From the IMG/VR virus record IMGVR_UViG_3300017963_000791, positions 1-22,141 of that record: DNA of 22,141 nt. The stretch is one strand, 5' to 3'. Below are positions 3,001-18,677 of this stretch, piece by piece. The position numbers were made by a program, and so were the translations under genes. Within the stretch, counting starts at the first letter, position 1. The number at the start of each line of letters is the position of its first letter. The notes beneath the pieces are model-generated. The model made no database searches. It was not told where the DNA came from and saw only the letters and a program-made list of their open reading frames with translations. The DNA is from a virus.

Positions 3001-3046
3001 GCCGGCGGCTGGCGGTCCGGACGATATGAGCGATATCCCGTTCTGA
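8..3046 (+). CDS. MuF / SPP1 gp7-like minor head protein with very long C-terminal extension
   Basis: This is a minor capsid (head morphogenesis) protein of the MuF/SPP1-gp7 family; relatives bind the portal inside the head and affect DNA packaging or ejection. The family signature lies at about residues 225-305: an ARTEIIRAH helix, then C275-D-L-C278 and H298-P-N-C-M-C303. The rest is extension, so at 1012 residues it is much longer than a minimal MuF protein. About residues 620-800 are Lys/Ala/Pro-rich (KAAAAKPAAAKQ, KVKAPKAKA) and very basic. The last 200 residues look helical. The C-terminus is D-D-M-S-D-I-P-F, like the tail of single-stranded DNA-binding protein. The start is uncertain: GTG at 8 is used here, ATG at 38 is equally plausible, and the frame is open to the window edge. 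Another frame has a TGA at 30-32 that may end an upstream gene, possibly the portal. No known toxin domain was recognised in the extension. Confidence 0.85.
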   Translation: MENAARSLNPMRLDPTRTTTLRRRFEQELGRRFDRLKRLVIALVVEEDAFGLKRKPPIVHAAGGDGASLAANERFVFPTSAEQLAAFESWLKQQSQAEVLTVPTGAGDQAYWHAYIQDGYQKGAGRAFDDVKKPYAKGYAAEGGDVSDFYQGSRYQFLQSSFANPIAVAKLRLLSGRVLSDLNGVTAAMGAQMQRSLADGLVRGESPWTVARKLNKAVEVGKKRAKVIARTEIIRAHGEGQLDALETLKVDKIGVMVEWSVSGVGTTMRGNPSPCDLCAALAGVVMTVKEARGLLPRHPNCMCSYIPANVGESKKGQVRTRRDLRRAVRESVRREMPKLKKRTLAEQLKRTTWPGPDTVFKRVRPRGVLDKAAALRPRPVFGARVPTRLPRRQAARAGVAVDEGASPFTGLLPDAEVAALPRSGPLGEATAQAERRLAKLIADRRASTGLYKSMASDELLEVQKNFQTGWMRSLAQTERTGGKLTATEAARLAEGRARLKAINAEIKRRREIYDLMRQARSAAESARTGKIALFEGDVAKLLAKPKDRYWDAGWRPKMGKPPYRPELFIKSDISGKPMRHYVKLPDGRLAHPDELKLARQRGNVVVFGKAKAPKAINWKTWLVDEPKAAAEVAPKAAAAKPAAAKQPLKRKARPLRRRAIVERRAPVKLPKVKRKPKAVEPQAAQPAKTPKRPYPKTEPLTPQDFTATRFEINQTLATGRLDVEAEQAVAKLVKADGPMAAAAKIKDTKNRQLLVRVQRIIGPRRGNGAKVENPADWRLVRGVWQEKPAKPVKVKAPKAKADTLGKPRKRKPDLRVRRETGAEIQAAVKEVAADYEVDQKLLRDVLDQRHADEVAEVRRRQGEIDALRKQVGLTTKQVQAVEDAGFDWTPNPARLRAQLGGTKKGEQLAKDLLAASKRMDEFGSAWAREYPGLIGDPDDPKAELMEGIWELMRVEKQPLPLKTDSRILHAAAEEAAELQKYKAAATEAAEEMRDYGFGPAAGGPDDMSDIPF

Positions 3047-7210: not shown

Positions 7211-7256
7211 GGCCCTGCTGTGGTGTCCTTGCCCCGCGCCCGGCAGGGCCTTTTTT
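7211..7256 (+). terminator. Intrinsic terminator after the major capsid gene
   Basis: GGCCCTGC (7211-7218) pairs perfectly with GCAGGGCC (7243-7250) and is followed by TTTTTT. The loop is long at 24 bases. A small hairpin (ACCTC/GAGGT, 7197-7210) abuts it upstream. Loop bases TTGCCCC at 7229-7235 are complementary to GGGGCAA just after the T-run at 7262-7268, so a competing or pseudoknot fold is possible. Confidence 0.8.
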
Positions 7257-7284
7257 GGCAAGGGGCAAACGGGGAGCAACGATT

Positions 7285-7641
7285 ATGCGTTTTGAGATTT
7301 TGCGGGGCTTGCACGCCGAGACGGTCACCCACGGCGAGGGGGAAGAGCAAGCGAAAGAGGTGGTCTGGTATGGGCCGCTGGACAAGGACGGCAACAAGAC
7401 CGAGGGGACGGTCGGGAATGTCGTGGAGTCGACGCTTGACCTCGAAAAGAAGTGGCCGGAGAAATTCCGGCGGGTCCGCGACGCGGAGGCGGTCGATCAG
7501 TTCTCGCGAATGACGGTTGCGCAGCTCCGGGCGTTTGCGGAATCGAACGGAATCGACCTGGGCTCGGCGCGCAAGAAAGCGACGATTGCGGCGATCGTGC
7601 GAGAATCGGAAGCGGCTGGCGAGGCGGTCGCCGCTGATTGA
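7285..7641 (+). CDS. Small head protein with HeH/LEM-like C-terminal helix pair
   Basis: This 118-residue protein begins at ATG 7285, preceded by GGGGAG. Residues 1-70 are mixed and charged. About residues 75-107 (MTVAQLRAFAESNGIDLG, then a KKATIAAIV helix) match the helix-extended-loop-helix pattern of HeH/LEM or Rho-N-like domains. Small phage proteins with this motif are common right after the major capsid gene, near the head-tail connector genes. The motif often binds nucleic acid or other proteins. A role at the connector or in DNA ends is inference. It is the first gene after the capsid terminator, so it is probably made at a lower level than the capsid protein. Confidence 0.6.
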   Translation: MRFEILRGLHAETVTHGEGEEQAKEVVWYGPLDKDGNKTEGTVGNVVESTLDLEKKWPEKFRRVRDAEAVDQFSRMTVAQLRAFAESNGIDLGSARKKATIAAIVRESEAAGEAVAAD

Positions 7642-7658: not shown

Positions 7659-8075
7659 ATGGCGATCCGCACGAGCGATCAAGCTGTGAGGGCGACGATC
7701 GAGACGGATTCCTCGATACCGCTGAATCAGTTTATCCGCAGGGCGAACGCGCTAACGGATCGCGTTGCGGCGAAAGACTCCAACGGCGTTCTGTCGGCGG
7801 CGCTGCTGGCGGAGATCGAAACGTGTCTTGCAGCGCATTTCTACGCGGCACGCGATCAGCTCTATCGGCGACGCTCGACGGGCGACGCAAGCGCGGAGTT
7901 CCAGGCGTCGCCGGGCAAGGGGGTCTTGGGTTACACCGACCCTGGGGCGCAGGCGATTCTCCTCGACGAAACGGGGTATCTGGCTGAGCTGGACAGGGGC
8001 GGCAAGCGGCAAGCGGAGGTCGGCTGGCTCGGGAAGCCGGTCAGTGAGCAAACGGACTACGTCGACCGGGACTAG
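7659..8075 (+). CDS. Putative head-tail adaptor (connector) protein
   Basis: This 138-residue protein is mostly helical in its first 85 residues, with a start of PLNQFIRRANALTDRV, a long helix LLAEIETCLAAHFYAARDQ and a looser C-terminal arm. The pattern and place, two genes after major capsid and just before a beta-rich stopper-like protein, fit the ring adaptor class (gp6/gp15-like). That ring binds under the portal and receives the stopper. ATG 7659 has AAGGGGAG upstream; an earlier TTG in the same frame at 7638 overlaps the previous gene and is less likely. The family match is by pattern only. Confidence 0.55.
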   Translation: MAIRTSDQAVRATIETDSSIPLNQFIRRANALTDRVAAKDSNGVLSAALLAEIETCLAAHFYAARDQLYRRRSTGDASAEFQASPGKGVLGYTDPGAQAILLDETGYLAELDRGGKRQAEVGWLGKPVSEQTDYVDRD

Positions 8076-8080
8076 GTGCG

Positions 8081-8443
8081 ATGCCCCTGGAAACGCACGG
8101 GCGGAAACAGAAGGCGGTCTTATGGGCTGCTGACGGGTTCGACGATTACGGGGAACCGAAGGTTGACGCGGCGGAACAGATTGATTGCCGCTGGGAAAAC
8201 GTCAACCGGGAGGTCGCGGGGCCGAACGGAACGCCGATTGCGATTGAAGCGGAGGTGGTTGTCGACAAGGCCGTAGCGGTCGGTTCGCGAATGTGGTTGG
8301 GTGAGCTGAAAGACTACACGGCGGCGGATACAAAGCTGGTCGTTGTGGCTCAACGGGAAATCCCAGACGTAAAGGCTCGGCATTTTCGGCGAGTGTGTTT
8401 GCTGGCGAGGGCGAGCGACACGTTGCCGACACTCAACAGCTAG
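8081..8443 (+). CDS. Putative head-closure (stopper) protein
   Basis: This 120-residue protein is beta-rich: KAVLWAADGFDDYGEPKV, QIDCRWENVNREV, then IAIEAEVVVDKAVAVGSRMWLGEL and KLVVVAQREIPDVKARHFRRVCLLA. This pattern of a small barrel with a long mobile loop is typical of phage stopper or head-completion proteins that seal the connector after packaging. It starts 5 bases after the adaptor-like gene. The ribosome site (AGG) is modest. The next expected gene in a siphovirus would be the neck or tail-completion protein, but here a 9-kb accessory island comes first. Confidence 0.55.
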   Translation: MPLETHGRKQKAVLWAADGFDDYGEPKVDAAEQIDCRWENVNREVAGPNGTPIAIEAEVVVDKAVAVGSRMWLGELKDYTAADTKLVVVAQREIPDVKARHFRRVCLLARASDTLPTLNS

Positions 8444-8455
8444 GGGGGCGGGGCG

Positions 8456-9007
8456 ATGCGACGATTTGCGGTGGGGCTTGACGCGGCGGCTTGCATGGTT
8501 GGGATCGCGGCACTTGCTGGCGTTGTCGGCGTGGTGCTGGCGAACGCACAAGAGAAGGCGCGGGGCGGGGCGCAGACGGTGCCCGGCGAGGGCCGCACCG
8601 ATCCGCGGGCGTTCCAGTGGAGCGAAGAGGCGGGGCTGACTGACGCGGAGTATGGCCTGAAAAGGGCGATCGAGGCGCACGAGCTGACGCCTGATTTTTA
8701 CGTGTCGTTTTTCACGGGGGGCGGGGCTTGGGAGCCCCGGATGGTTGTTCGCGACCCGGAAACGCTGTTGCGAGTCGAGCCGGCCAGGGTGAATTACGAC
8801 TATCGGGGGAAGCTGTGGTCGAGCGATTGGGCATTGGTCGAGCGACCGCCACCGGGGGTCAAGCTGACGGAACGTGGCGAGGCGGTATACCGCACGCTCA
8901 CAACGAAGCTCAAGGGGTACCACGAGGCGGCGAGGCGGGAGGCTCGGGCGAGGCGGGAAGCGGAGGCGCACAAGCTGCGGGCTCAAGCGAGGGGGCTTTT
9001 TCAGTGA
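8456..9007 (+). CDS. Membrane-anchored protein of unknown function
   Basis: I do not recognise the family. The 183-residue protein has one hydrophobic helix at about residues 10-30 (ACMVGIAALAGVVGVVLANA), read as an N-terminal membrane anchor. A soluble domain follows with aromatic patches (FYVSFFTGGGAWEPRMVV, NYDYRGKLWSSDWALV). The end, about residues 150-183, is a highly charged Arg/Glu/Ala helix. It opens the accessory island with a GGGGGGCGG ribosome site, and its stop overlaps the start of the secreted thioredoxin-like gene (GTGA), so the two are likely translated together. No enzyme motif is seen. Confidence 0.6.
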   Translation: MRRFAVGLDAAACMVGIAALAGVVGVVLANAQEKARGGAQTVPGEGRTDPRAFQWSEEAGLTDAEYGLKRAIEAHELTPDFYVSFFTGGGAWEPRMVVRDPETLLRVEPARVNYDYRGKLWSSDWALVERPPPGVKLTERGEAVYRTLTTKLKGYHEAARREARARREAEAHKLRAQARGLFQ

Positions 9008-9855
9008 GCAAGCACGGGGCCCTGATTCTGGCGATCGTGGCGGCGCTTGCGGGCACGCGAGCTGACGCGGGCACGCGGGATCGCTGGTTGGAGGTGTGGA
9101 CCTCGGCGGGCTGCGGGGCGTGCGTGGAAATGGCGCCGACGGTCGATGCGTTGCGGGCGGAGGGCTACAGAATTGGCACGGCGAGCGCGGATCAATATGG
9201 GGAAATTGCGGACGCTCGGGAGGTCAAGGCGTTGCCGACAACGCTCCTTCTCGTGCCGGGCGGCCGCGGCTGGCGGGAAGCGGGGCGGATCGAGGGGGTA
9301 GCGACGCGAGCGGAACTGCTCGGCTTGCTGCTGCGGGGCGAGGTCGGGCCGGACGTGCCGCCAGCTCCGGCTTCGGCTCAAGCGTACAAGCTGGTGGTGA
9401 TCGTCCACCCGGAGAAGCAAGCGGATTTCGGCGACCTCAAGCGGGCGTCGACGAAGGCGATCGAGGCTGGCTACAAAGTCGTTTTCGCGGACTGGGAAAC
9501 GAACTGGAATAACGCGAGGCACCAGCCGTGGATTCGGCAATTCGACATTCGGGAAATGCCGTTTTATGTGCTCCATCGCGGCCACGAGATCGTCGAGGTG
9601 ACAAGTGGGCGGGTGCTGAGCCCTCGCGAGGTCGGGAGCTGGATTGCGGGGGTCGAGTCGGGCCAGCAGGTGTATCGCAAGAGCAAAGCGCAGGCGCACT
9701 TGGCGGCGGCCGATCGAGTCTACTATCGGCGGCGGCTCGCTCCTGGCTCGTGTGGGATGCTTGGGTGCGTTGCTCACGGCGGCGGGCTCGTGCTTGACAG
9801 GGTGACGTTGCCGGCGGCTCCGAGTGGCGTGGAGGTTCCTGCGGGGCGGCAGTGA
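9004..9855 (+). CDS. Secreted two-domain thioredoxin-like protein with CGAC motif
   Basis: The 283-residue protein starts at GTG 9004, overlapping the previous stop. Residues 1-22 form a Sec signal peptide (hydrophobic LILAIVAALAG, then a likely cut after ADA). The first thioredoxin-like domain has the active-site pattern W-T-S-A-G-C37-G-A-C40 and a later cis-proline pattern (VKALPTTLLLV). A second region, about residues 125-220, repeats the fold pattern without CxxC (AYKLVVIVHPEK, EMPFYVLHRGHEIV). It would act outside the cytoplasm on disulfides. Cysteines and a conserved-looking CGMLGC pair lie near the C-terminus. A secreted thiol protein inside a phage structural cluster is unusual. Redox activity is inferred from CxxC. 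Confidence 0.7.
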   Translation: MSKHGALILAIVAALAGTRADAGTRDRWLEVWTSAGCGACVEMAPTVDALRAEGYRIGTASADQYGEIADAREVKALPTTLLLVPGGRGWREAGRIEGVATRAELLGLLLRGEVGPDVPPAPASAQAYKLVVIVHPEKQADFGDLKRASTKAIEAGYKVVFADWETNWNNARHQPWIRQFDIREMPFYVLHRGHEIVEVTSGRVLSPREVGSWIAGVESGQQVYRKSKAQAHLAAADRVYYRRRLAPGSCGMLGCVAHGGGLVLDRVTLPAAPSGVEVPAGRQ

Positions 9856-9898
9856 GGGCGATAGCGTGCGCCCCGTGGCGGGGCGATGGGAGATCGCG

Positions 9899-10162
9899 AT
9901 GGTTGGGCGACTGTGGCACGATGAGGGCGGCGCGGTGCTGTCGGCGGAGCTGGTGCTCTTGCTGGTGCTGGTGCTCGCTGGCGTGCTTTCTGGCGCGGCG
10001 ACGATCAAGCGGGGCTTGCTGGGCGATGCGGAGGCGGTGTCGGCGACGTTGTCGCGGGAGGTGCAGGCGTTCTGCGGGGAGGAAAGCGGCAAGGCTGAAA
10101 GCCCGGAAGTGCCGGGAATCCATGTTTTCGGGAGGGGTGAGCGATGGGAATTCGACGATTGA
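9899..10162 (+). CDS. Flp/TadE-like prepilin-type small membrane protein
   Basis: The 87-residue product reads MVGRLWHDEGGAVLSAELV followed by a strongly hydrophobic helix to about residue 38. This is the layout of Flp or TadE prepilins: a short charged leader, a cut site after Gly/Ala, Glu at +5, and a long hydrophobic stretch. Cutting between A12 and V13 would place E17 at +5. The remaining 45 residues are polar and end in charged residues. ATG 9899 follows GGGAG by 6 bases; earlier non-ATG starts in the frame lack support. The next gene overlaps it by 19 bases. Prepilin processing is inferred from the motif; it could simply be a single-span membrane protein. Confidence 0.55.
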   Translation: MVGRLWHDEGGAVLSAELVLLLVLVLAGVLSGAATIKRGLLGDAEAVSATLSREVQAFCGEESGKAESPEVPGIHVFGRGERWEFDD

Positions 10163-10494
10163 GGGGCCGACTCGATTCGGTGCAGAGTTCGCTTGAGGGC
10201 ATGGCGGGCCAGGTGAGCGGCACGGCGGAGGTCTATCGTCAAGCGGGGCTGCTCGTGCTCGACTTGCTGCGTGAGGTGACGGACGAAAACGGCTTGCTGG
10301 TCGACCTCAACACCAACCAAGAGCTGACGATCACGGTTTCCGAATTGTTCGGCCTGGATCTGTCGGCGGTTGTGGCGAAGCTGGCGGGCTTGCTGGGGCT
10401 CGGCAAGCCGTCGGGCGACGTGGCGGAATTCGTGCTGAGCCTGAGCGGCGGGCAGTTTCGGGTAAAGCTTCACAGTGACGATCCGGCGGAGTAG
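10144..10494 (+). CDS. Hypothetical 116-aa helical protein
   Basis: I do not recognise the family. ATG 10144 has a strong GGGAGG site and overlaps the end of the prepilin-like gene, so the two are coupled. The first half looks like amphipathic helices (RLDSVQSSLEGMAGQVSG, QAGLLVLDLLREV). The middle has a Leu/Val/Gly-rich stretch (LSAVVAKLAGLLGLG) that may be membrane-associated or a core helix. There are no cysteines. Its tight coupling to a prepilin-like gene suggests a partner or membrane-peripheral role. Confidence 0.5.
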   Translation: MGIRRLRGRLDSVQSSLEGMAGQVSGTAEVYRQAGLLVLDLLREVTDENGLLVDLNTNQELTITVSELFGLDLSAVVAKLAGLLGLGKPSGDVAEFVLSLSGGQFRVKLHSDDPAE

Positions 10495-10537
10495 CTAAGC
10501 CGCTGGGGCAAACCTCTGGACGTGGGAGATCGAGATC

Positions 10538-10846
10538 ATGGCGCGACTGAGTAAGGAAATGCGGCCGCTGTACAGGGCGGTCCTGAAGGTGGTGGATCAA
10601 GCCGCGCGTGCGGGCGATGCGCCGAGGCGAGCAGGGTGGAAGCTCCGCACGGCGAGGGTGTTCGCACCCGGCTCTCTTGCGGAGATGCTGGAAGATATCG
10701 CACCGGCTGTGGTAGACGAGGCAATCGCTGCGGGTGCCCTCCCGCCGCAGGCCGCTGACGATGGGTGGAACATCGACTGGGATAAGCTGCTGGAGTTTAT
10801 CCAGAAGCTGTTGGACATCATCCTCGCCTTCATCCTGGCCCTGTAA
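10538..10846 (+). CDS. Hypothetical 102-aa protein with amphipathic C-terminal helix
   Basis: I do not recognise the family. Residues 1-80 are charged and helical (RPLYRAVLKVVDQAARAG, LAEMLEDIAPAVVDEAIAAG). The last 22 residues form an amphipathic to hydrophobic helix, WDKLLEFIQKLLDIILAFIL, ending at the stop. Such a tail could insert into or lie on a membrane. GGGAG lies 11 bases before the ATG. Possible roles include a holin-like or membrane-disturbing peptide, or a membrane tether. Its place between other exported or membrane proteins supports an envelope role. Confidence 0.5.
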   Translation: MARLSKEMRPLYRAVLKVVDQAARAGDAPRRAGWKLRTARVFAPGSLAEMLEDIAPAVVDEAIAAGALPPQAADDGWNIDWDKLLEFIQKLLDIILAFILAL

Positions 10847-10858
10847 GGAGCCGCAAGG

Positions 10859-11815
10859 GTGAGAACGCTAACGACAATCGCGGCGCTCCTTCTGGCCGCT
10901 TCGGAGGTCTGTGGGCAACTGCGGCTCGACGGACCCGCCGAAGCGGAGAAGGGGCGCAGTTTTGAGGTGACCGTCGAGGGCGCGAACCTTGAATTGGACG
11001 ATTTTAGCCGTCGCGATCCCCCGCAGATGCAATGGTTGGTGGTACCAGAACAAGAGGAGCGGCCCCGCAGCCGATATGAGCTGATTTTTCACGACGGGAA
11101 ATGGACGGTTAGCCCCTACTGCACGGTGACGTGCGATCGTCCAGGCACGGCGGGGGTGGTGTTTTTGCTCGTGCGGGACGGGCTGGGAGAACTGCTGTCG
11201 CATGAAGTGGACGTGAAGGGGGCGGACGACGGCGACGATGACGACGACGACCCGGACCCGCCGCCGCCAGTCGAGGAATTATGGGGGGCGATTCTGGTTT
11301 ATGAATCTGCCTTAGAAGAGGAACCGACGGAGGAGGATCTGCGGATCGCGAGGCTGCTCTCCGACGTGGAGCTGCTCAAGTGGTTTAGCGGTTTGGGGCT
11401 CAAGTTTCACCGGAACGACCAGCACAACAAAGATCCATTCGGGGCGCAGATCAAGCCGGAGTATATTGCGAGGGCACGAGCGCACGGGCTCCCGGCCCTG
11501 ATGGTTGTCACTGAGGGGGGGCGGGTGCCGTACACGGGCGACGTGCCGGGAGCGGAGGGAATCAAGGCGCTGATAACTGATCTGGTTAAGGGGGGGAAAG
11601 CACTATGGCCGGAAGATCGACCACAACCAAGGCGGGCGCCAGCGAGGGAAGTGCTGCCGCTTCCAGCTCCACTTCCGTTGCCAACGGATGGCTCAAAACG
11701 GTCGGCGACTGGACCGGCAAATACGGGATCGCTTCGGCGCTTCTACTCGCTATGGCGTGGGGAGTTTGGCAGGCTTACGTCCTCCCCCAGCAACAGCGAA
11801 CGGATTCCCTACTAG
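10859..11815 (+). CDS. Secreted protein with acidic linker and thioredoxin-like C-terminal domain
   Basis: GTG 10859 has AAGGAG 8 bases upstream. Residues 1-20 are a signal peptide (TIAALLLAASEVCGQ). About residues 20-120 look like a beta-sandwich (RLDGPAEAEKGRSFEVTVEG). A DDGDDDDDDPDPPPP linker leads to a domain at about 140-245 with thioredoxin-like layout: LWGAILVYE at the start and LPALMVVTEGGRVPYTG as a cis-proline region, but no CxxC. The final 73 codons overlap the next gene in another frame and are Pro/Arg/Ser-rich, so natural termination may differ from the literal 318 residues (see the G7 run at 11590). It is likely an extracytoplasmic partner of the thioredoxin-like protein upstream. 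Function is unknown. Confidence 0.55.
   Translation: MRTLTTIAALLLAASEVCGQLRLDGPAEAEKGRSFEVTVEGANLELDDFSRRDPPQMQWLVVPEQEERPRSRYELIFHDGKWTVSPYCTVTCDRPGTAGVVFLLVRDGLGELLSHEVDVKGADDGDDDDDDPDPPPPVEELWGAILVYESALEEEPTEEDLRIARLLSDVELLKWFSGLGLKFHRNDQHNKDPFGAQIKPEYIARARAHGLPALMVVTEGGRVPYTGDVPGAEGIKALITDLVKGGKALWPEDRPQPRRAPAREVLPLPAPLPLPTDGSKRSATGPANTGSLRRFYSLWRGEFGRLTSSPSNSERIPY
11590..11596 (+). other. G7 run: strong ribosome site, or possible -1 slippery heptamer
   Basis: Seven G's are read as AAG GGG GGG AAA in the upstream gene, so they form the heptamer G GGG GGG in the correct phase for a -1 shift. A shift would enter the frame of the next gene and join the secreted protein to the membrane coiled-coil protein. 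The simpler reading is that AAGGGGGGG is the Shine-Dalgarno sequence for ATG 11605, eight bases later. Confidence 0.3.
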
Positions 11816-11919
11816 ACGGGGTTCTCGAAAGGCTGGAGGCTGACGGCAAGACGCTGGAGTCAATCGACGAACGGATGGGGCGAATGGAGCAGAAGTGGGC
11901 GGAGGAGTTTCGACGGTGA
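11605..11919 (+). CDS. Single-span membrane protein with C-terminal coiled coil (holin/spanin-like)
   Basis: The 104-residue protein starts with a Ser/Ala/Thr-rich segment, then a membrane helix at about residues 40-60 (GIASALLLAMAWGVWQAYVL), then a coiled coil with heptad leucines (DSLLDGVLERLEADGKTLESIDERMGRMEQK). The layout matches the protein encoded on the far side of the peptidase gene (12892-13269), so the two may be a pair. Such small membrane/coiled-coil proteins beside a lytic enzyme are often holins, XhlA-like proteins or inner-membrane spanins. Its first 211 bases overlap the end of the previous gene. A strong G-rich ribosome site supports the start. Confidence 0.6.
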   Translation: MAGRSTTTKAGASEGSAAASSSTSVANGWLKTVGDWTGKYGIASALLLAMAWGVWQAYVLPQQQRTDSLLDGVLERLEADGKTLESIDERMGRMEQKWAEEFRR

Positions 11920-12122
11920 GCGGACACGGCGAAAGCTGGGAGAGCGATTGCGGCAAGTGGGCGATCAGTGGATTTTGCTCGCTCGCGGACTTTGAGCAGC
12001 TCAAGGCGGCGGTTCTTCGGGGCTTTGTGGTCTATGTTTCCCGAGACGTTCCGGCCGTTGAAGAGCGGCCACGATGCCGAGGCGATCGACAGACTTGCAG
12101 GGAGGGGGCCAGGTGCAGATAA
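11916..12122 (+). CDS. Small Cys-containing hypothetical protein
   Basis: The possible 68-residue product starts at GTG 11916, overlapping the previous stop (GTGA). It has five cysteines (DCGKW, GFCSL, PRCRG, TCREG, ARCR) and a helix FEQLKAAVLRGFVVYV. The last 10 bases overlap the start of the peptidase gene. No family is recognised. Coupled translation suggests it is real, but the short length and overlaps on both sides keep confidence low. If real it could be a regulator or propeptide-like partner of the peptidase. Confidence 0.35.
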   Translation: MSGHGESWESDCGKWAISGFCSLADFEQLKAAVLRGFVVYVSRDVPAVEERPRCRGDRQTCREGARCR

Positions 12123-12895
12123 CTCCGCTCATTCCACCGGAGGGCGTGGCGAAGGGGTGCCTGCCCCGCACGAGTCGGATCGGGCAGGACTGCCCGCTTG
12201 CGGCTGAGCGGCTGCCCTACGTGATCCCCCAGGAAGAGTGGGCGGGCATTATACCGAACGCGGACCTGCGCCCGTTGGTGCCGTTCGGGTTATATCAGGA
12301 TGGTGTGGGGAGCTGCGCGTCTGAATCCTGCGGGCAGGCGATCCAGATCAAGATCGTGCAAGCTGGATTCGCCCCGGTCAAGCTCAACCCGTGGACCCAG
12401 TATAGGACGGTTTCTGGCGGGGTAGATCGCGGCTCGACGCTGGGCGACAACCTCAAGCACGCTCGCGACGTGGGGATCTGTAGCTATGACTTTTGGCCCA
12501 GGTATGACGACACTACTTGGGACGACCCGGACGGGCCGCGAATCATCCATCCGTGGTACAGCACACCGGAGGGGGACTGGGAGGGGAACGCCCGCAATTT
12601 CAGGATCGACGAGTTCTGGGAATGCACTACTGTTGCGGAGGTTGGAACGTGCCTGATCTTGGGCCACCCGGTTTCGTTCGGGTGGCAAGGGCATTCCTGC
12701 GTTCTGACCAAACTTGTTTCAACGACTTCGGCAGAATATCGGAACAGTTGGGGCGATGGCTGGGGTGATATGGGATTCGGAATCGTGTCGTTGAGCGCGA
12801 TCGACATTCGCTATGGGGCTTATGCGGTGCGGTCGGTGATCGTGCCCTCGCAGGAAGTTCTACCACCTGACCCGCAGAAGAGGCAGGCAGCATGA
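12113..12895 (+). CDS. Papain-like (C1 family) cysteine peptidase
   Basis: The 260-residue protein has the full C1 catalytic set: Q62-D-G-V-G-S-C68 (oxyanion-hole Gln six residues before the nucleophile, as in papain), H194 in QGHSCVL, and N211 in NSWGDGWGDMGFGI, the typical NSWG block. C72 follows near the nucleophile and may form a disulfide. There is no signal peptide, so it acts inside, leaves with a holin, or is part of the virion. GTG 12113 is chosen because GGAGG ends 7 bases before it; an ATG at 12074 is also in frame. It lies between two single-span membrane coiled-coil genes, so it may be an envelope-cleaving lysis enzyme, an entry enzyme, or a maturation protease. The substrate is unknown. 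Confidence 0.8.
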   Translation: MQITPLIPPEGVAKGCLPRTSRIGQDCPLAAERLPYVIPQEEWAGIIPNADLRPLVPFGLYQDGVGSCASESCGQAIQIKIVQAGFAPVKLNPWTQYRTVSGGVDRGSTLGDNLKHARDVGICSYDFWPRYDDTTWDDPDGPRIIHPWYSTPEGDWEGNARNFRIDEFWECTTVAEVGTCLILGHPVSFGWQGHSCVLTKLVSTTSAEYRNSWGDGWGDMGFGIVSLSAIDIRYGAYAVRSVIVPSQEVLPPDPQKRQAA

Positions 12896-13269
12896 CGCCA
12901 GCACCTAAGACGGAAAGCAAGTTTGAGGGGCCTGTCTGGAGAACCTTTTTCCAGGCGATCCAGCAATTCGGAATCTCTACTGTCTTGCTGGTGCTTGTTT
13001 TGGGGTGGTTGGCGTGCTTCGTGGCGAATCCGATTATTGATTCGATGGTCACGTTCTTGAATCAGCAGGTGGTCATTACAAAGGCCCAACTGGAGATCAT
13101 GGGGAAGCTGGAAGCGTCGCTAGAGGATCTGAAACAAGAGCACGTCTGCGTGGGCCAGCAACACTCCGCGTTTCTGGAGGCGCAGAGTCGGCAGACTGAG
13201 GCTTTGGATTCGATCCAGCGGACGCTGTTGGCGATCGAGGGGCGAATGAACGGACATAAAGGAGAATAA
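12892..13269 (+). CDS. Single-span membrane protein with C-terminal coiled coil (holin/spanin-like)
   Basis: The 125-residue protein overlaps the peptidase stop (ATGA). A membrane helix lies at about residues 27-48 (ISTVLLVLVLGWLACFVANP), followed by a long coiled coil (KAQLEIMGKLEASLEDLKQEH, QTEALDSIQRTLLAIEGRM). It shares layout with the 11605-11919 product but not obvious sequence. Overlap with the peptidase gene suggests coupled production, as in lysis cassettes. It could be a holin, a spanin-like protein, or a membrane anchor. There is no lipobox, so it is not an outer-membrane spanin. Confidence 0.6.
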   Translation: MTPAPKTESKFEGPVWRTFFQAIQQFGISTVLLVLVLGWLACFVANPIIDSMVTFLNQQVVITKAQLEIMGKLEASLEDLKQEHVCVGQQHSAFLEAQSRQTEALDSIQRTLLAIEGRMNGHKGE

Positions 13270-13281
13270 GGGGAATACACT

Positions 13282-13578
13282 ATGGCTACAACCTACGCCA
13301 CAATCAAGGCCGCGCTGGACGAGATTGCGCAGCGCATCAACAGCAACCAAAAGCGGCTCGATGCGGCGGAAAGCAACATTGCCACCGCCGAAGCGGACCT
13401 TGACGGCATGACTGCCCAATACGCAACCATCGTGTCTGATCTCGACGCTGCCCTGGCCGCCGACCCGACTAATGTGGCCCTGCAAGCGGCAGCCGCCGAG
13501 AAGGACTTGCTGGTTGCCGAGTACCAGGCTCTCAAGGCCACGGCGACGGCGATGAAGAACGCCCTGGAGGACGTGTGA
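13282..13578 (+). CDS. Small coiled-coil protein
   Basis: This 98-residue protein is almost entirely heptad-patterned (TIKAALDEIAQRINSNQKRL, then LVAEYQALKATATAMKNAL) with a short PTN break. It starts after AAGGGGAA. From here to about 16.1 kb the base usage is more balanced and C-rich than in the rest of the window. It looks like a virion trimer or fibre stalk, or a chaperone, but no family is recognised. The next two genes follow by one base each, so it belongs to a compact operon with them. Confidence 0.5.
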   Translation: MATTYATIKAALDEIAQRINSNQKRLDAAESNIATAEADLDGMTAQYATIVSDLDAALAADPTNVALQAAAAEKDLLVAEYQALKATATAMKNALEDV

Positions 13579-13579
13579 G

Positions 13580-13864
13580 ATGGCTGTTACTTGGAACGTA
13601 GACCTCGCGGTTACAGACCTCGCACAGCGACGGATCAGCGTAACGGCGACCCGCACGGACGACACGCCGGAGCCCGACGACGTGCGGACGTACACGGCGC
13701 AGGTGCAAATACCCGAAACGGGAGCACTGGCGGCGCTACAAGCCGCGATGGATTTCATCTTCGCCAAGTACGAAGCGGAGGTGGCCATCGAGGCGCAACA
13801 CGCGGCCTTGCTCTCAAATTGGGAATCGCAAGCTGAGAGCTATCTCGGCGGACTGGAGGCGTAA
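13580..13864 (+). CDS. Hypothetical 94-aa protein
   Basis: I do not recognise the family. The first half is beta-like (VTWNVDLAVTDLAQRRISVTATR, RTYTAQVQI) and resembles small phage proteins that pair with fibre genes. The second half is one long helix (LAALQAAMDFIFAKYEAEV to ESYLGGLEA). The ATG lies one base after the previous stop. Position beside LamG genes suggests a tail-fibre accessory or assembly factor. Confidence 0.5.
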   Translation: MAVTWNVDLAVTDLAQRRISVTATRTDDTPEPDDVRTYTAQVQIPETGALAALQAAMDFIFAKYEAEVAIEAQHAALLSNWESQAESYLGGLEA

Positions 13865-13865
13865 C

Positions 13866-14288
13866 ATGGCAAACACAGGCTATGACTGGGGCTCCTGGAC
13901 GTTCGCCAAGGACGACGGCGGCGACGACTGGGACGCAGACGCCCTAGCCGACAATGGCACAGAGACATCTAACACCGCGATCAGCCTCGATACTATTGCA
14001 GCCTGCGAGGTGGGGATCGCTCTGTACGAAGACAACACCGGAGCCATTGACGGCGTGGTGACGGTGTTCATTCTCGGCAGTGGCGGCGGGATTGCCGACG
14101 AAGAGACGACAATCGGCAGCCCCTGGAGCTTTACCATCACGCCCGTGCAGAATGACACGGTTTACAAGCGGTTCTCGGTGGACCCCGCAGCCTATGGCGA
14201 CTTCAAGATTGCGATTCTCAACGAGGGCGGGCAGGAGTTGGCAGTTAGTGTGAAATACCGCACGGCAACTATCCCGGTAGCGAGCTAA
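13866..14288 (+). CDS. Hypothetical beta-rich 140-aa virion-type protein
   Basis: This acidic 140-residue protein is beta-rich (EVGIALYEDNTGAIDGVVTVFIL, PWSFTITPVQNDTVYKRFSV, FKIAILNEGGQELAVSVKY). It looks like a single jelly-roll or immunoglobulin-like domain, a type common in phage surface proteins. It has no signal peptide. Its stop overlaps the start of the LamG gene (TAATG). It is probably displayed with or assembled onto the adhesin-like proteins. No specific family is assigned. Confidence 0.5.
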   Translation: MANTGYDWGSWTFAKDDGGDDWDADALADNGTETSNTAISLDTIAACEVGIALYEDNTGAIDGVVTVFILGSGGGIADEETTIGSPWSFTITPVQNDTVYKRFSVDPAAYGDFKIAILNEGGQELAVSVKYRTATIPVAS

Positions 14289-15022
14289 TGACCGCAACCT
14301 TGCAACCTCCGATGTGGTGCCCTGGTGTGCACCTCTCGCACCCGCTGGCTCAGGGTCTTGTCGCCTACTGGCCGATGTGGGAGGGGAGCGGCGACACGGT
14401 ACACGACCTCTCGGGCAACGGCAACCATGGCGCGTTGACGAACGGGCCGACGTGGGTGGCTACCGAGATGGGCGGGGCACTGGAGTTCGACGGCGATGAT
14501 GACTTTATCGAGTTAGGCAGCATTGGGCCGGACCACCCGTTGTCGTTCACCGGAAACGAGTTTTCGCTGGCGTTCTGGTTGTACCAGGAAAGCGGTGGAG
14601 ACCAGTTTCAGCGAATTATCGACAAAAGCGACGGGGGCGGTGGTGCGAATGGGTTTGCTTTTGTTACGCAATATACTGGCAACGAAGGGCATGTGCAATT
14701 TTACGTTGATGGAAATGCCATCGGTCTCTATTTTTCCGGCGTATACTCGTACCAGACATGGGTACACCTCACATTAACGTGGGATGGCTCAGCGTTTAAG
14801 CTGTATACCGATGGTACATATTTCGCGACCAGAGACGAAGCCGACACCATCCCTTCCACCACCAAGAACTGCCGCATCGGCTCCTGGAATCACAGCACAG
14901 GGCGGGAGTTCGAGGGCAAGCTGAGCAACTTTCTGGCGTGGGACCGTGCCCTCACCGCAGGCGAGATCGCCCAGTTCTACGCCGACCCCTGGATTCTCTC
15001 CCGCCCACCGAGGTTGATGTGA
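14288..15022 (+). CDS. LamG / concanavalin-like lectin-fold protein
   Basis: The 244-residue protein is essentially one LamG-type domain. The hallmark strands are present: GLVAYWPMWEGSGDTVHDLSG, ALEFDGDDDFIELG, FSLAFWLYQ, WVHLTLTWDGSAFKLYTDG and SNFLAWDRALTAGEIAQFY. This fold binds sugars or proteins on surfaces. There is no signal peptide, fitting a virion protein assembled in the cytoplasm. Part of the gene (about 14640-14830) is clearly richer in A and T than the rest. It probably helps the particle bind the host surface. Binding partner unknown. Confidence 0.75.
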   Translation: MTATLQPPMWCPGVHLSHPLAQGLVAYWPMWEGSGDTVHDLSGNGNHGALTNGPTWVATEMGGALEFDGDDDFIELGSIGPDHPLSFTGNEFSLAFWLYQESGGDQFQRIIDKSDGGGGANGFAFVTQYTGNEGHVQFYVDGNAIGLYFSGVYSYQTWVHLTLTWDGSAFKLYTDGTYFATRDEADTIPSTTKNCRIGSWNHSTGREFEGKLSNFLAWDRALTAGEIAQFYADPWILSRPPRLM

Positions 15023-16680
15023 TGCGTGGGTTAGTACTAACAGCAGGAGCGGCAGCAAGCGGGGTTCCGTGGTTGAGCGGGTATACGTACCGCAAGAAGA
15101 TCACGACGCAATTCACGAACGTGGACAGTGCGCTTACCGACTTCCCGCTCTACGTCCCGTTCTCTAACGACGCCGACCTGGCCGCTGCACTGGCGACTGG
15201 CTACGACATCAGGTTTACCCAGAGCGACGGAGAAACACTACTCAAGTACGAGCGGGAGAGTTGGTCCGGTGGGGGTGGCTCCAACGTGACCGCCGACTTC
15301 TGGGTCAAGGTGCCGAGCATCTCGGCGGTGGCTGGGACGGACATCTACATCTACTACGGCAAGACGGGCGATTCGGACGGCGAGGACGCGAGCAACGTGT
15401 GGGACAGCAACTTCGCAGCCGTCTACCACCTGAAGGAAGACGGGGGCACTTACTACGATAGCACGTCTAACAACTGCGACGATGACGGCTCGGGCACGGA
15501 TCCAACGCGCGGTACCGGTAAAGTGGGCTATGGCCAGGACTTCGAGGACGGTAGCAGTGAGTATATTGACTGCGGGAATCCGTCTGCCCTTCAGATTACC
15601 GGAAAAGCGATAACCGTCGAAGCGTGGCTAAAGGGCGAGAGCTACACTAACTGGCAGGCATTGTTGGGCAAGTCTGATGTCGGGAACAACGACTGGAACG
15701 AGGGATGGGGGTTTTACTGGTACAGCAACGAGTTGGAATTTTACTGCAACGATTACGCTGCCGGAAACGCCCACATCGGTCTGACGGACACGGCAAGCTG
15801 GCACTACGCTGTAGGCTATTACGATGGGTCCTCGGTGGAGATCGACCTCGATAACACGACGGGGACTGGCCAGTTATTGTCGGCCAACATCACGGATGGC
15901 GACACGTTCGCTATCGGCAGGCTCGGTGGTCACACTGACTACTGGGATGGGCTCGTTGATGAAGTGCGGATTAGCGAATACACCAGGCCCGCCGAGTGGC
16001 GGAAATTCACCTACCACAACATCGCCGAGGCCGATAACGAGCTGACGATCGGCAGCGAAGAGGAGGGGCTGGTCGATTATGACCTCGTTTGTGCGCAGGG
16101 CTCATTTACACTAACTGGGCAGGCGGTTGGACTTGAGGCGGCGAGGTCGTTGGCGTGCTCGCAAGGTTCGTTCACGTTGACCGGCCAGGCGATGACGCCG
16201 AAGGCGGCGCGGTCGCTGACGTGCGGCGCGGGTTCGTTCGTGTTGACGGGGCAAGCGGTGGGCGTCGAGGCGGCGCGGTCGCTGACGTGCGGGCAAGGGT
16301 CGTTCGCGCTCACGGGTCAAGCTGCGGGGCTGGTGATCGCGAGAACGCTCACGGCATCGTATGGCGGCTTTGTGCTGAGTGGGCAGGCGGTCGCGCTGCT
16401 GCGGGCTGCGACGCTGACGGCGGCGGCGGGCACGTTCACGCTGACGGGGCAAGCGGTGACGTTGCGGCGAGGGCGGGTGCTGGAGGTCGGCTTCGGAGCG
16501 TTCACGCTGAGCGGGCAAGCGGTGACGCTAAGCTACACGTTCACGCCGGAAACGTCATGGGAGATTGTGGCGGGGGAGGTGTTCGCGGCGGGAGGCGTCG
16601 CGGGCGAGGTGTACCTTGCGGGGGCGGCGACATCGGAGGTGTTTTGCGCTGGGGGCGTGGCTGGAGAAATCGGAGGTTAA
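15022..16680 (+). CDS. DUF2341 + LamG protein with seven 22-residue repeats
   Basis: The 552-residue protein starts at ATG 15022, overlapping the previous stop. Residues about 15-115 match DUF2341 (YRKKITTQFTN, FPLYVPFSN, YDIRFTQSDG, DIYIYYGK). About 120-340 is a LamG domain (AVYHLKED, ITVEAWLKG, WHYAVGYYDGSSVEI, GLVDEVRISEYTR). Residues 354-507 are seven 22-residue repeats with core GSFTLTGQAV. The end has 10-residue repeats of the type GEVFAAGGVA. It is likely an adhesin or tail-associated binding protein. Codon style changes at about 16.1 kb, from balanced to G-rich, near the start of the repeats, so the gene looks like a fusion of two sources. Confidence 0.75.
   Translation: MRGLVLTAGAAASGVPWLSGYTYRKKITTQFTNVDSALTDFPLYVPFSNDADLAAALATGYDIRFTQSDGETLLKYERESWSGGGGSNVTADFWVKVPSISAVAGTDIYIYYGKTGDSDGEDASNVWDSNFAAVYHLKEDGGTYYDSTSNNCDDDGSGTDPTRGTGKVGYGQDFEDGSSEYIDCGNPSALQITGKAITVEAWLKGESYTNWQALLGKSDVGNNDWNEGWGFYWYSNELEFYCNDYAAGNAHIGLTDTASWHYAVGYYDGSSVEIDLDNTTGTGQLLSANITDGDTFAIGRLGGHTDYWDGLVDEVRISEYTRPAEWRKFTYHNIAEADNELTIGSEEEGLVDYDLVCAQGSFTLTGQAVGLEAARSLACSQGSFTLTGQAMTPKAARSLTCGAGSFVLTGQAVGVEAARSLTCGQGSFALTGQAAGLVIARTLTASYGGFVLSGQAVALLRAATLTAAAGTFTLTGQAVTLRRGRVLEVGFGAFTLSGQAVTLSYTFTPETSWEIVAGEVFAAGGVAGEVYLAGAATSEVFCAGGVAGEIGG
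16081..16542 (+). repeat. Seven in-frame 66-bp repeats coding 22-residue units
   Basis: Each unit carries the core G-S/T-F-x-L-T/S-G-Q-A and starts at about 16081, 16147, 16213, 16279, 16345, 16411 and 16477. The first unit uses balanced codons. Units 2-4 keep a Cys before the core (LACSQG, LTCGAG, LTCGQG), while units 5-7 lose it. The copies are diverged, so this is an old protein repeat and not a recent slippage product. Confidence 0.85.
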
Positions 16681-16685
16681 GCGAC

Positions 16686-17096
16686 ATGGCATCGTTCAAT
16701 AAGTTCCAGCCGTTCGTCGAGGATCTGGCCGAGAAGGTCCACAACCTCGGCTCGGACCAGCTCGCAGCGGCGCTGACGAATTCGGCCCCGAATGCGACCG
16801 ACGATCAGCTCTCGGACATCACCGAGATTTCGTACACGAATTGCTCAAGCCGTGCGATCACGACTACGTCGAGCGAGCAGACGGGCGGCACGTACAAGCT
16901 GGTCCTCACCGACCTGGTTCTCACGGCGAGCGGTGGCACGGTTGGCCCGTTGCGATACGTCGTGCTGTATAACGACACGGCGACGAATGACGAACTGATC
17001 GGCTATTGGGATTACGGCAGCTCGATCACGCTCGCGGACGGGGAAACGCTCACGCTGGATTTCGACGCCTCGAACGGCGTTTTGCAGGTCACATGA
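16686..17096 (+). CDS. Conserved phage structural-region protein
   Basis: The 136-residue protein reads as a beta-rich unit typical of a widespread but uncharacterised phage family: FNKFQPFVEDLAEKVHNLG, LAAALTNSAPNATD, LSDITEISY, YKLVLTDLVLTASGGTVG, LRYVVLYNDTATNDELIG and SSITLADGETLTLDFD. Members lie among tail or virion genes. It starts 5 bases after the repeat protein. It is probably a virion component. Its codon use is balanced. Confidence 0.65.
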   Translation: MASFNKFQPFVEDLAEKVHNLGSDQLAAALTNSAPNATDDQLSDITEISYTNCSSRAITTTSSEQTGGTYKLVLTDLVLTASGGTVGPLRYVVLYNDTATNDELIGYWDYGSSITLADGETLTLDFDASNGVLQVT

Positions 17097-17112
17097 CCGG
17101 GAGGGTTCGGAA

Positions 17113-17379
17113 ATGTTCAGGCTTTCGAGTGAAGCTGAAATGCGGGCGAGGTTCCGCGAGCTGACGGCGGCGAAAGAGGCGCTGACGGCACGAGCGGCCC
17201 CGTTTCGGGCGGAGTACGACAAGCACGCAAAGGCGATCGACGCTTTGCGGGCAAAGCAACGCGAGCTGGCGGCTAAGTTCAAGCCGATCGAGCAAAAGAC
17301 GATCCCCATTGACCGCGAGCGCGCGATGATCGCGCGGGGGCTCAACGGGAAAACAGGCGAGCCGAAGCCGGAGGGTTAA
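17113..17379 (+). CDS. Small charged coiled-coil protein
   Basis: This 88-residue protein is Lys/Arg/Glu/Ala-rich and nearly all helix (EAEMRARFRELTAAKEAL, KHAKAIDALRAKQRELAAKF). GGGAGG lies before the ATG. Similar small helical proteins occur between virion genes in phages and may act as assembly factors. No family is assigned. It lacks Cys and membrane segments. Confidence 0.55.
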   Translation: MFRLSSEAEMRARFRELTAAKEALTARAAPFRAEYDKHAKAIDALRAKQRELAAKFKPIEQKTIPIDRERAMIARGLNGKTGEPKPEG

Positions 17380-17382
17380 GCC

Positions 17383-17766
17383 GTGGCGATTCCGACGGCA
17401 AGCGGGCAGGTATGGGAGGATGGCGGCGCTACGCTCATGGCGCGCATTCTCGACAATGACGGCAGCGCGGCGCAGCAAGGGGATATTTCGTCAATCAGCC
17501 GCGACGTGTGGGATCTGGATACGTCGACCACGTCGGCGGTTGACACGTCGGCGGTAGCGGTCGCAACTTCGATTTACGATACGCTCCAGACTGATTCGCG
17601 GTGGACCGAAGACAGTACGGGCTACAACTTCCTCGACACGGTCGCGGCGGCGTTGCTGGCGAACGGGAACCATCGTTATCGGGTCGAGTACAAGTTCACG
17701 CCTGCAAGCGGGCAGGTTTACTGGGCGGTGTTCTCGCTGTGGGTCGAGGGCGTGTTCAAGAGTTAG
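17383..17766 (+). CDS. Conserved phage virion-region protein
   Basis: The 127-residue protein starts at GTG 17383, three bases after the previous stop. It contains beta strands with a motif seen in phage neck or tail-region proteins: WTEDSTGYNFLDTVAAALL and YRVEYKFTPASGQVYWAVFSLWV. The fold may be a small beta-sandwich. It lies directly before the neck genes, so a virion role is likely. Function is unknown. Confidence 0.55.
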   Translation: MAIPTASGQVWEDGGATLMARILDNDGSAAQQGDISSISRDVWDLDTSTTSAVDTSAVAVATSIYDTLQTDSRWTEDSTGYNFLDTVAAALLANGNHRYRVEYKFTPASGQVYWAVFSLWVEGVFKS

Positions 17767-17770
17767 AGCG

Positions 17771-18217
17771 ATGAAGATCGAGGGCTTGCACAAGCTGGAA
17801 GCGAAGCTAAAGGAGATGGCGACGGCTTACGGCCCCACGAAAGTCGGCGTGCAGGTGGGCTATACGCAAACCTACGCCATTCACGTTCACGAGAAACAAG
17901 CGAGCCACAAGGTGGGCCAGGCGAAGTATCTGGAGCAACCGGCGCGGGAGTATCAGGGGACGATTGCGGCGATTATCGCGAAGGCGATAAAGAAAGGGAA
18001 AACACTAGAACAGGCGATGCTCTTGGGCGGGCTTCGCCTGCAACGTGAAAGCCAGAAGCTCGTGCCGGTCGACACGTCTGCACTAAAGGCGTCGGCATTT
18101 ACGGCGCTCGACCGCGAGGCGGAGCGAAAGGCCACGGAAGCTTATCAGCGGTCGGAAGCGATACGGTTCAAGGCGGGAATGCGGCGGCAAGTGAAGCGGG
18201 AAAGAGCGAGGGCATGA
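17771..18217 (+). CDS. HK97 gp10-like neck / tail-completion protein
   Basis: The 148-residue protein fits the HK97-gp10 class: an N-terminal helix with LEAKLKEM, the core YAIHVHEKQASHKVGQAKYLEQPARE, a long helix IAAIIAKAIKKGKTLEQAM, and LVPVDTSALKAS near the end, as in many members (the 'VPVDTGxLRxS' pattern). It has a long basic C-terminal helix. These proteins help join tail to head. It resumes the standard siphovirus order after the accessory island. Confidence 0.75.
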   Translation: MKIEGLHKLEAKLKEMATAYGPTKVGVQVGYTQTYAIHVHEKQASHKVGQAKYLEQPAREYQGTIAAIIAKAIKKGKTLEQAMLLGGLRLQRESQKLVPVDTSALKASAFTALDREAERKATEAYQRSEAIRFKAGMRRQVKRERARA

Positions 18218-18218
18218 A

Positions 18219-18677
18219 GTGAGCGGAACGCTTAGCCATACCCCGGCGGATATCGTGCGGCGGGTGCTGATCGCGCTGAGCGGCGGTACGTTGCCGAGCG
18301 CGTCTGGGGCGTGGCCGATCTATTGCGGCACGCTGCCGGATGAACCGGACGCGGCGGCAGTGGTGACGGACACGGCGGGGACGATTGACGGGCACTTGCA
18401 ACCGGGCGGGGAAGCGCAAGAGCATTATGGGGTCCAGGTGACGGTGCGAAACGCGGTGTACGATACGGGGCACGACAAGGCGAACGCGCTCGCGATCTTA
18501 CTCGACCAATCGGTGCGGCTTACGGCGATCACGATAGGGTCGAGCGATTACGTCGTTTATGCGATCACGCGAAGCTCGGGGGTGTTGCACGCGGGGAGGG
18601 ACGCGGGGAGGGACGCGGGAAGCAAAAGGCATTTATTCACCCTCAACGCCGTAGTGTCTCTGCGGCAAACCGCTTGA
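18219..18677 (+). CDS. Putative tail terminator protein
   Basis: The 152-residue protein follows the gp10-like gene and precedes the tail tube, where the terminator that caps the tube is encoded. The pattern fits: an N-terminal helix (PADIVRRVLIAL), strands (PIYCGTLPDEPD, AAVVTDTAGT), a core Y-GVQVTVRNAVYDTGHDKANALAIL, and C-terminal strands (SDYVVYAITRS, HLFTLNAVVSL). GTG 18219 is used, one base after the previous stop. Near the C-terminus a 12-bp tandem repeat encodes GRDAGRDAG. Confidence 0.6.
   Translation: MSGTLSHTPADIVRRVLIALSGGTLPSASGAWPIYCGTLPDEPDAAAVVTDTAGTIDGHLQPGGEAQEHYGVQVTVRNAVYDTGHDKANALAILLDQSVRLTAITIGSSDYVVYAITRSSGVLHAGRDAGRDAGSKRHLFTLNAVVSLRQTA
18589..18619 (+). repeat. 12-bp in-frame tandem repeat
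   Basis: The unit ACGCGGGGAGGG occurs twice, followed by a partial ACGCGGG, inside the tail terminator gene. It encodes repeated Ala-Gly-Arg-Asp. It looks like a slippage expansion in a surface loop. Confidence 0.7.

Follow-up and report, generated by a model that had tools for sequence, protein, structure and literature searches.

The window analysed here is a virus fragment of 22,141 bases (IMG/VR record IMGVR_UViG_3300017963_000791, positions 1 to 22,141), in which genes for a MuF protein, protease, decoration protein, major capsid protein (PHROG 771), a small protein labelled rho, adaptor and stopper are followed by 17 open reading frames (ORFs), and these by a gp10-like neck gene, the tail terminator (PF12691), tail tube, assembly chaperone and tape measure. 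The head-to-neck gene order of tailed phages is usually taken as fixed. The 17 ORFs, all on the plus strand between 8456 and 17766, form the island considered here and are numbered i01 to i17 (Table 1). They fill a gap of 9,327 bases between the end of the stopper gene (8443) and the start of gp10 (17771). Most spacings within it range from −32 to +43 bases, with overlaps of the GTGA or ATGA type; the exceptions are a 211-base overlap of i06 and i07 and a 154-base gap 5′ of the papain-like protease gene, i08.

About 90 relatives, found by searching with the capsid protein and with an alignment of capsids, were compared at this junction, with core genes placed by iterated profiles. The close relatives are metagenomic fragments throughout, with gene calls from a simple codon-based caller; L-numbers below are labels of these related loci. 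Where a locus has both stopper and gp10 (47 cases), a median of 3 bases separates them, and more than 30 relatives have the two joined directly. Just 11 of the 47, the window included, have a gap of at least 1.5 kb, and these hold 1.8–9.3 kb. An earlier note on this DNA had described a same-strand island of about 9.3 kb, with overlapping starts, in a gene order that is normally tight, and both observations stand. Neighbouring junctions can be filled as well: rho–adaptor in 12 of 67 loci (2.1–7.6 kb), capsid–rho in 5 of 81, gp10–terminator in 4 of 33, and adaptor–stopper in 1 of 61. Cargo akin to that of the window island is found in these adjoining junctions of relatives too.

The flanks are conserved while the contents differ. 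Most flanking proteins of L025 are 38–68% identical to those of the window (capsid 68%, rho gene 26%), but none of its seven island genes match; nor are there matching island genes in L002, L034, L037, L059, L033, or L091. Four of 13 island genes match in L027 and two of 11 in L044, the latter being i06 and the papain gene. The four in L027 (papain, i11, i12, and LamG) are in the same order as in the window, within an island of about 9.6 kb that is closed within L027's own record. Because conserved flanks enclose differing contents in many relatives, this phage family has an insertion hotspot between stopper and gp10, as the earlier note had proposed; the island is no chimera, nor is it a fixed core block. 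The same island in all relatives would have spoken for the latter; instead, many join the genes directly and close ones carry unrelated cargo.

That the gap might be an ordinary one, a core block of the genus or an assembly join, is accordingly very improbable. The single strand of the 17 genes, their coupled starts and their third-codon GC (0.69–0.82, near that of the flanks) would fit it, and the same composition rules out an island recognisable as foreign on that basis. Against it stand the directly joined relatives and the unrelated cargo that the closest ones hold in the same place, and since L027 has its own island with shared genes in the same order and slot, an assembly chimera is ruled out. 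A self-mobile element (transposon or integrative element) was also rejected: Pfam and PHROG searches identified no integrase or transposase among the island ORFs, and the longest word common to both flanks is 12 bases.

Table 1. Features of the island and its flanking genes in the window.
Feature	Coordinates	Strand	Basis or remark
Head-tail adaptor-like gene, conserved left flank	7659..8075	+	Iterated profile; same position in most relatives
Stopper-like gene, left border of slot	8081..8443	+	Profile matches in L013, L015, and ~60 IMG/VR loci; gap comparison
i01, exported or membrane-anchored protein	8456..9007	+	Hydropathy 2.56 at residue 13; no family match
i02, thioredoxin-like, signal-like N-terminus, CGAC motif	9004..9855	+	Pfam Thioredoxin 22.3 bits, cut-off 23.5
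i03, small protein, one strong hydrophobic segment	9824..10162	+	Hydropathy 2.78; no family match
i04 (10144–10494) and i05 (10538–10846)	10144..10846	+	i05 ends in hydrophobic helix
i06, signal-like N-terminus, Ig-like domain, then alpha/beta domain of thioredoxin-like topology	10859..11815	+	Alignment, model
i07, membrane segment and coiled coil, holin/spanin-like by shape only	11605..11919	+	Hydropathy modest (1.46); no convincing family
i08, predicted papain-fold cysteine protease (C1 type), no signal peptide	12074..12895	+	Catalytic residues, model fold
i09, membrane segment and coiled coil, start coupled to i08 (ATGA)	12892..13269	+	Hydropathy 2.62; weak PHROG matches (E 0.02–0.06)
i10, small coiled-coil protein	13282..13578	+	Weak XhlA/hemolysin match (PHROG E 0.002)
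i11 (13580–13864) and i12 (13866–14288), fibre-module partners	13580..14288	+	Homologues in L005–L007, L010, L027
i13, LamG lectin-like protein	14288..15022	+	Laminin_G_3 76.6 bits; homologues in nine other loci
i14, DUF2341, LamG, and repeat stalk (~20-residue units)	15022..16680	+	DUF2341 46.0 bits, Laminin_G_3 50.3 bits
i15, PHROG 644 protein, fibre or tail associated	16686..17096	+	PHROG 644 E 3.5e-11
i16 and i17	17113..17766	+	i17 homologue in gp10–terminator slot of L061
gp10-like neck gene, right border of slot	17771..18217	+	Profile matches ~50 ORFs and Hardycor1 nep1 position
Tail terminator, with fused lectin domains in relatives	18219..18677	+	PF12691 37.6 bits

The stopper-like gene has no PHROG match of its own; it was identified from its position and because its profile picks out the correspondingly placed genes of Brevundimonas phage MaInes and Mannheimia phage 587AP2. 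For gp10, the profile hits nep1, annotated as a neck protein in Halorubrum phage Hardycor1, and in these three cultured relatives the adaptor, stopper and/or neck genes are adjacent. Among 50,697 phage records there was no match to the window papain, to one island trypsin or to gp10. Family-level capsid matches occur in three of 133 genomes of the phylum Zixibacteria, and this is not enough to assign a host to the window. Further upstream, the MuF protein (8–3046) has a 600-residue basic, proline- and lysine-rich C-terminal extension. The C-terminal part of the small protein 3′ of the capsid gene (7255–7641) matches PHROG 3281 (endonuclease VII) and 10541, probably through a shared SAP/Rho-N-like domain.

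The island falls into two parts. Strong hydrophobic segments, defined as a 17-residue hydropathy mean of at least 1.7, are present in i01–i05 and i09, with weaker ones in i06 and i07 and none in i10–i17. Since they are confined to the i01–i09 side, the island was divided at about 13,270 into module A (8456–13269) and module B (13282–17766). Such segments are also frequent in the complete stopper–gp10 islands as a group (35 of 86 proteins). The proportions are lower among non-core proteins encoded upstream of the head protease (53 of 408; p = 3e-8) and among core proteins (33 of 553; p = 4e-16), shared ancestry being ignored in both comparisons. For the first half, a role of the cargo at the host envelope, as the earlier note suggested, is supported by this excess, by the protease and by the exported or membrane proteins.

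At the centre of module A is i08, which by fold and catalytic residues is a papain-fold protease of the C1 type, its activity being predicted. It holds the catalytic Gln, Cys, His, and Asn (the last in an NSW motif); the Cys is kept in 13 of 13 relatives, and the His and NSW motif in nearly all, at identities of 18–42%. The AlphaFold model has a pLDDT of 78.7, with the N-terminal 25 residues disordered, and its top structural match in the PDB is xylellain (3ois; E 2.2e-11), followed by cathepsins. The window protein gives no match to Pfam PF00112 at E 0.1, while its homologue in L027 exceeds the cut-off (E 7e-8); the papain-like assignment of the earlier note is upheld by fold and residues. 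A CHAP/NlpC-type amidase was considered and ruled out, the top fold matches being C1 proteases. The family occurs in 13 other loci, across four kinds of slot, and in L012 it is present though no other gene was BLAST-matched to the window. One member (L073, 16533–17876) has LAGLIDADG-like and Hint C-terminal-like (VHNC) sequence directly before the catalytic Cys, an insertion that looks like an intein.

Papain genes tend to travel with the i06 family of exported proteins with Ig-like and thioredoxin-like parts: nine loci have both, two and two have only one, and 47 have neither (p = 2e-7, kinship ignored). In the i06 model the Ig part is good and the second domain is of low confidence; a thioredoxin fold was not accepted for the latter because the model is too weak there and the Foldseek matches fall on the Ig part. 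Genes like i05, judged by eye, precede Ig/papain genes in L044, L029, and L027. Within 11590–11815, i06 and i07 overlap just downstream of a run of seven G, near where relatives of i06 end; a frameshift there, either biological or from sequencing, is possible. Two other readings of the earlier note hold in part. The secreted thioredoxin-like protein i02 has the motif and a signal-like N-terminus, with a score just under the Pfam cut-off, and the “prepilin-like” i03 has its strong hydrophobic stretch and no match to any family. Pfam searches with the membrane coiled-coil proteins of relatives gave coiled-coil noise only.

In other islands the place of papain is held by trypsin (14 loci), a C92 amidase, a lipase, or an astacin/reprolysin metallopeptidase. 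Papain and trypsin are never found together (11 loci each of 60, none with both), although mutual exclusion is not significant (p = 0.19). Exported thioredoxins recur in the islands of relatives; in L059 (13241–15037) Trypsin_2 and Thioredoxin_2 are part of one protein with a signal-like N-terminus. In L033 and L056 a membrane coiled-coil protein is accompanied by two small genes and by a trypsin whose N-terminus is signal-like. The smallest cargo, in L078, is a single holin-like membrane coiled-coil protein (PHROG holin, E 6.5e-5); L068 has a holin-like gene in the same slot (E 1e-5), and L027 has a weak Rz-like match.

Several features of these relatives were recorded in passing. A recurrent protein of about 217 residues, DUF115-like by eye, is the lone occupant of the rho–adaptor slot in 13 loci (e.g., L010, 11563–12216). 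The 61-kb record of L056 (G030) encodes 5-hydroxymethyl-dU DNA kinase, amino acid:DNA transferase, and thymidylate synthase families, the set of a phage with hypermodified DNA. Two tail-tube-like genes are found in tandem after the terminator in L087 (7128–7988), L088 (13491–14415), and L090 (5465–6389).

Module B has a different character. Both of its LamG assignments, made in the earlier note from the sequence, are solid (Table 1). Genes for i11 and LamG proteins occur in L005–L007 and L010 (in L010 with i12 as well), where they are 3′ of gp10, between it and the terminator. In L007 (7624–10230) and L010 (14573–16900) LamG is fused via a repeat stalk to a tail-terminator domain, and L004 (7104–9386) has the same layout with a divergent head. 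The terminator ORFs of L008 and L009 have long N-terminal extensions; in L008 (12839–13813) a CBM96 domain (53.5 bits) and Phage_tail_terminator_6 (44.1 bits) share one ORF. A second terminator-like domain follows the tail tube gene in L004, L007, and L010. BppU_N proteins lie near or directly before gp10 in the islands of L034, L027, and L037, the position occupied in the window by i17, in which Pfam detected no BppU_N domain. The product of i15 is 53–58% identical to genes adjoining the needle head gene of Pam1 and a tail-protein gene of EBPR siphovirus 2. Because relatives fuse LamG or CBM96 to the tail terminator, the LamG proteins of the window are probably neck fibres, and the products of module B as a whole would probably belong to the virion neck. 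The island had been described as not involved in morphogenesis, which for this second half is probably wrong.

Taken together, these observations suggest a junction that takes late, host-facing cargo, of which the window copy would comprise two modules. Module A would be an envelope-attack cassette, dismantling a protein-rich host envelope at exit and located where P2 has its lysis genes: in that phage, holin, endolysin, and spanins sit between L and R/S (PMC3091744). The i08 protease would be made in the cytoplasm, translationally coupled to i09 as a possible holin or spanin, and i02 and i06 would join the attack as exported thioredoxin/Ig proteins. Module B would supply lectin fibres assembled on the head-tail neck and aiding adsorption. 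Both would be expressed with the morphogenesis operon, and recombination within the conserved genes on either side would swap them between phages. We infer the exit function, the holin role, the neck location of the window's LamG proteins and the mode of exchange. Exit seems the most likely role for module A, and a late cassette combining protease-based exit genes with neck adhesins in a P2-like position is given about an even chance.

Searches for peptidoglycan hydrolases bear on this proposal. Pfam and PHROG gave no match to a peptidoglycan-degrading endolysin in the window island, and Amidase_2, M15_3, M23, Phage_lysozyme, and SLT were not found by Pfam in 20 long relatives, in a search that, as a control, did recover phage K1M's annotated lysozyme. 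The near-complete 51-kb record of L027 has no peptidoglycan hydrolase among the Pfam families found, only Peptidase_C1 and a polysaccharide deacetylase, and in the 61-kb L056 record Trypsin_2 is the sole envelope-directed hydrolase among the 25 of 38 families listed. Several points, however, weigh against an exit cassette of this kind. Relatives with no island also lack Phage_lysozyme and Amidase_2, the two families searched there, so the absence of lysins is not tied to the island and was dropped as proof specific to it. Divergent lysins may escape family searches; for holin, spanin, and thioredoxin the window offers weak assignments, and i07 and i09 are not provable as holins by Pfam or PHROGs. 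Papain and LamG genes show no association (p = 0.34). Slot cargo is also not always of a lysis or fibre type: in prophage-like regions of the Zixibacteria phylum the rho–adaptor slot (L116, 5929–13368; L020, 11376–14225) has glycosyltransferase-, methyltransferase-, and radical-SAM-like genes, as judged from their sequences. The wider proposition that this widespread uncultured phage group exits mainly by proteolysis, with swapped proteases (papain, trypsin or metallopeptidase), thioredoxin-family partners and holin-like proteins replacing peptidoglycan endolysins in a slot that also swaps terminator-borne lectin fibres, is doubtful.

Module A could instead remodel the surface of the living host, with exported proteases, lipases, and thioredoxins trimming or altering receptors, which would keep progeny from adhering to debris or shut out superinfecting phages; the slot would then be a moron hotspot. 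Signal-like N-termini mark the slot proteases of L033, L043, L052, and L059, whose secretion would precede lysis, related slots include glycosyltransferases and nucleases, and the islandless relatives presumably lyse their hosts by other means. The window papain, however, has no signal peptide, holin-like genes occupy the same slot, and genes acting early or in lysogeny would not typically share, as this cargo does, the strand of the late structural genes; on balance this role is rather unlikely. It is a good deal less probable that module A is packaged in the virion and acts at entry, its protease and thioredoxins digesting host surface proteins alongside the LamG fibres. Its genes are indeed among virion genes and next to those for fibres, and proteases, lipase, and LamG are all surface-directed, but the signal-like N-termini of several products favour Sec export over packaging, and the relatives examined have no fusions of a protease to a virion protein, whereas lectin fusions do occur.

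Whatever module A does, several neighbouring head-neck junctions act as exchange slots for host-facing genes, and the intervals separating adaptor, stopper, gp10, and terminator may be a simple place to look for adsorption or exit genes of uncultured phages. Through the lectin-terminator fusions, neck adhesins become open to genetic study. If the protease module is a lysis system, endolysin lysis would not be the sole enzymatic exit of tailed phages.

Among known systems, the P2-type lysis cassette is likewise between capsid completion and tail completion genes of a late operon and likewise has small membrane proteins beside a hydrolase (PMC3091744). Here, in contrast, a papain-fold protease takes the place of the peptidoglycan hydrolase, exported thioredoxin/Ig proteins are added, the contents are swapped wholesale, fibres are found in the same slot, and the window's holins and spanins are candidates only. 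The i08 protein shares its fold and Cys-His-Asn arrangement with xylellain and other C1 papain-like proteases, but is phage-borne, encoded in a structural operon, and about 22% identical to xylellain over the structural alignment. Moron or cargo insertion sites of phage late operons also hold unrelated accessory genes between conserved flanks; in this case the cargo genes all run in the same direction, are coupled in translation and belong to a few recurring kinds, and one phage family uses several neighbouring junctions. The neck passage structure, or collar and whiskers, of the lactococcal 936 and P335 phages consists of optional neck adhesins with a BppU_N-like collar and variable carbohydrate-binding or beta-helix tips (PMC6669499, PMC4493119). 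BppU_N, LamG, and CBM96 all occur in the present family, and i13 and i14 of the window supply the lectin-tip feature with LamG. The arrangement differs in that the genes are between stopper and gp10 or beside the terminator, rather than downstream of the baseplate as in TP901-1, and in that some relatives have the lectin fused to the tail terminator itself.

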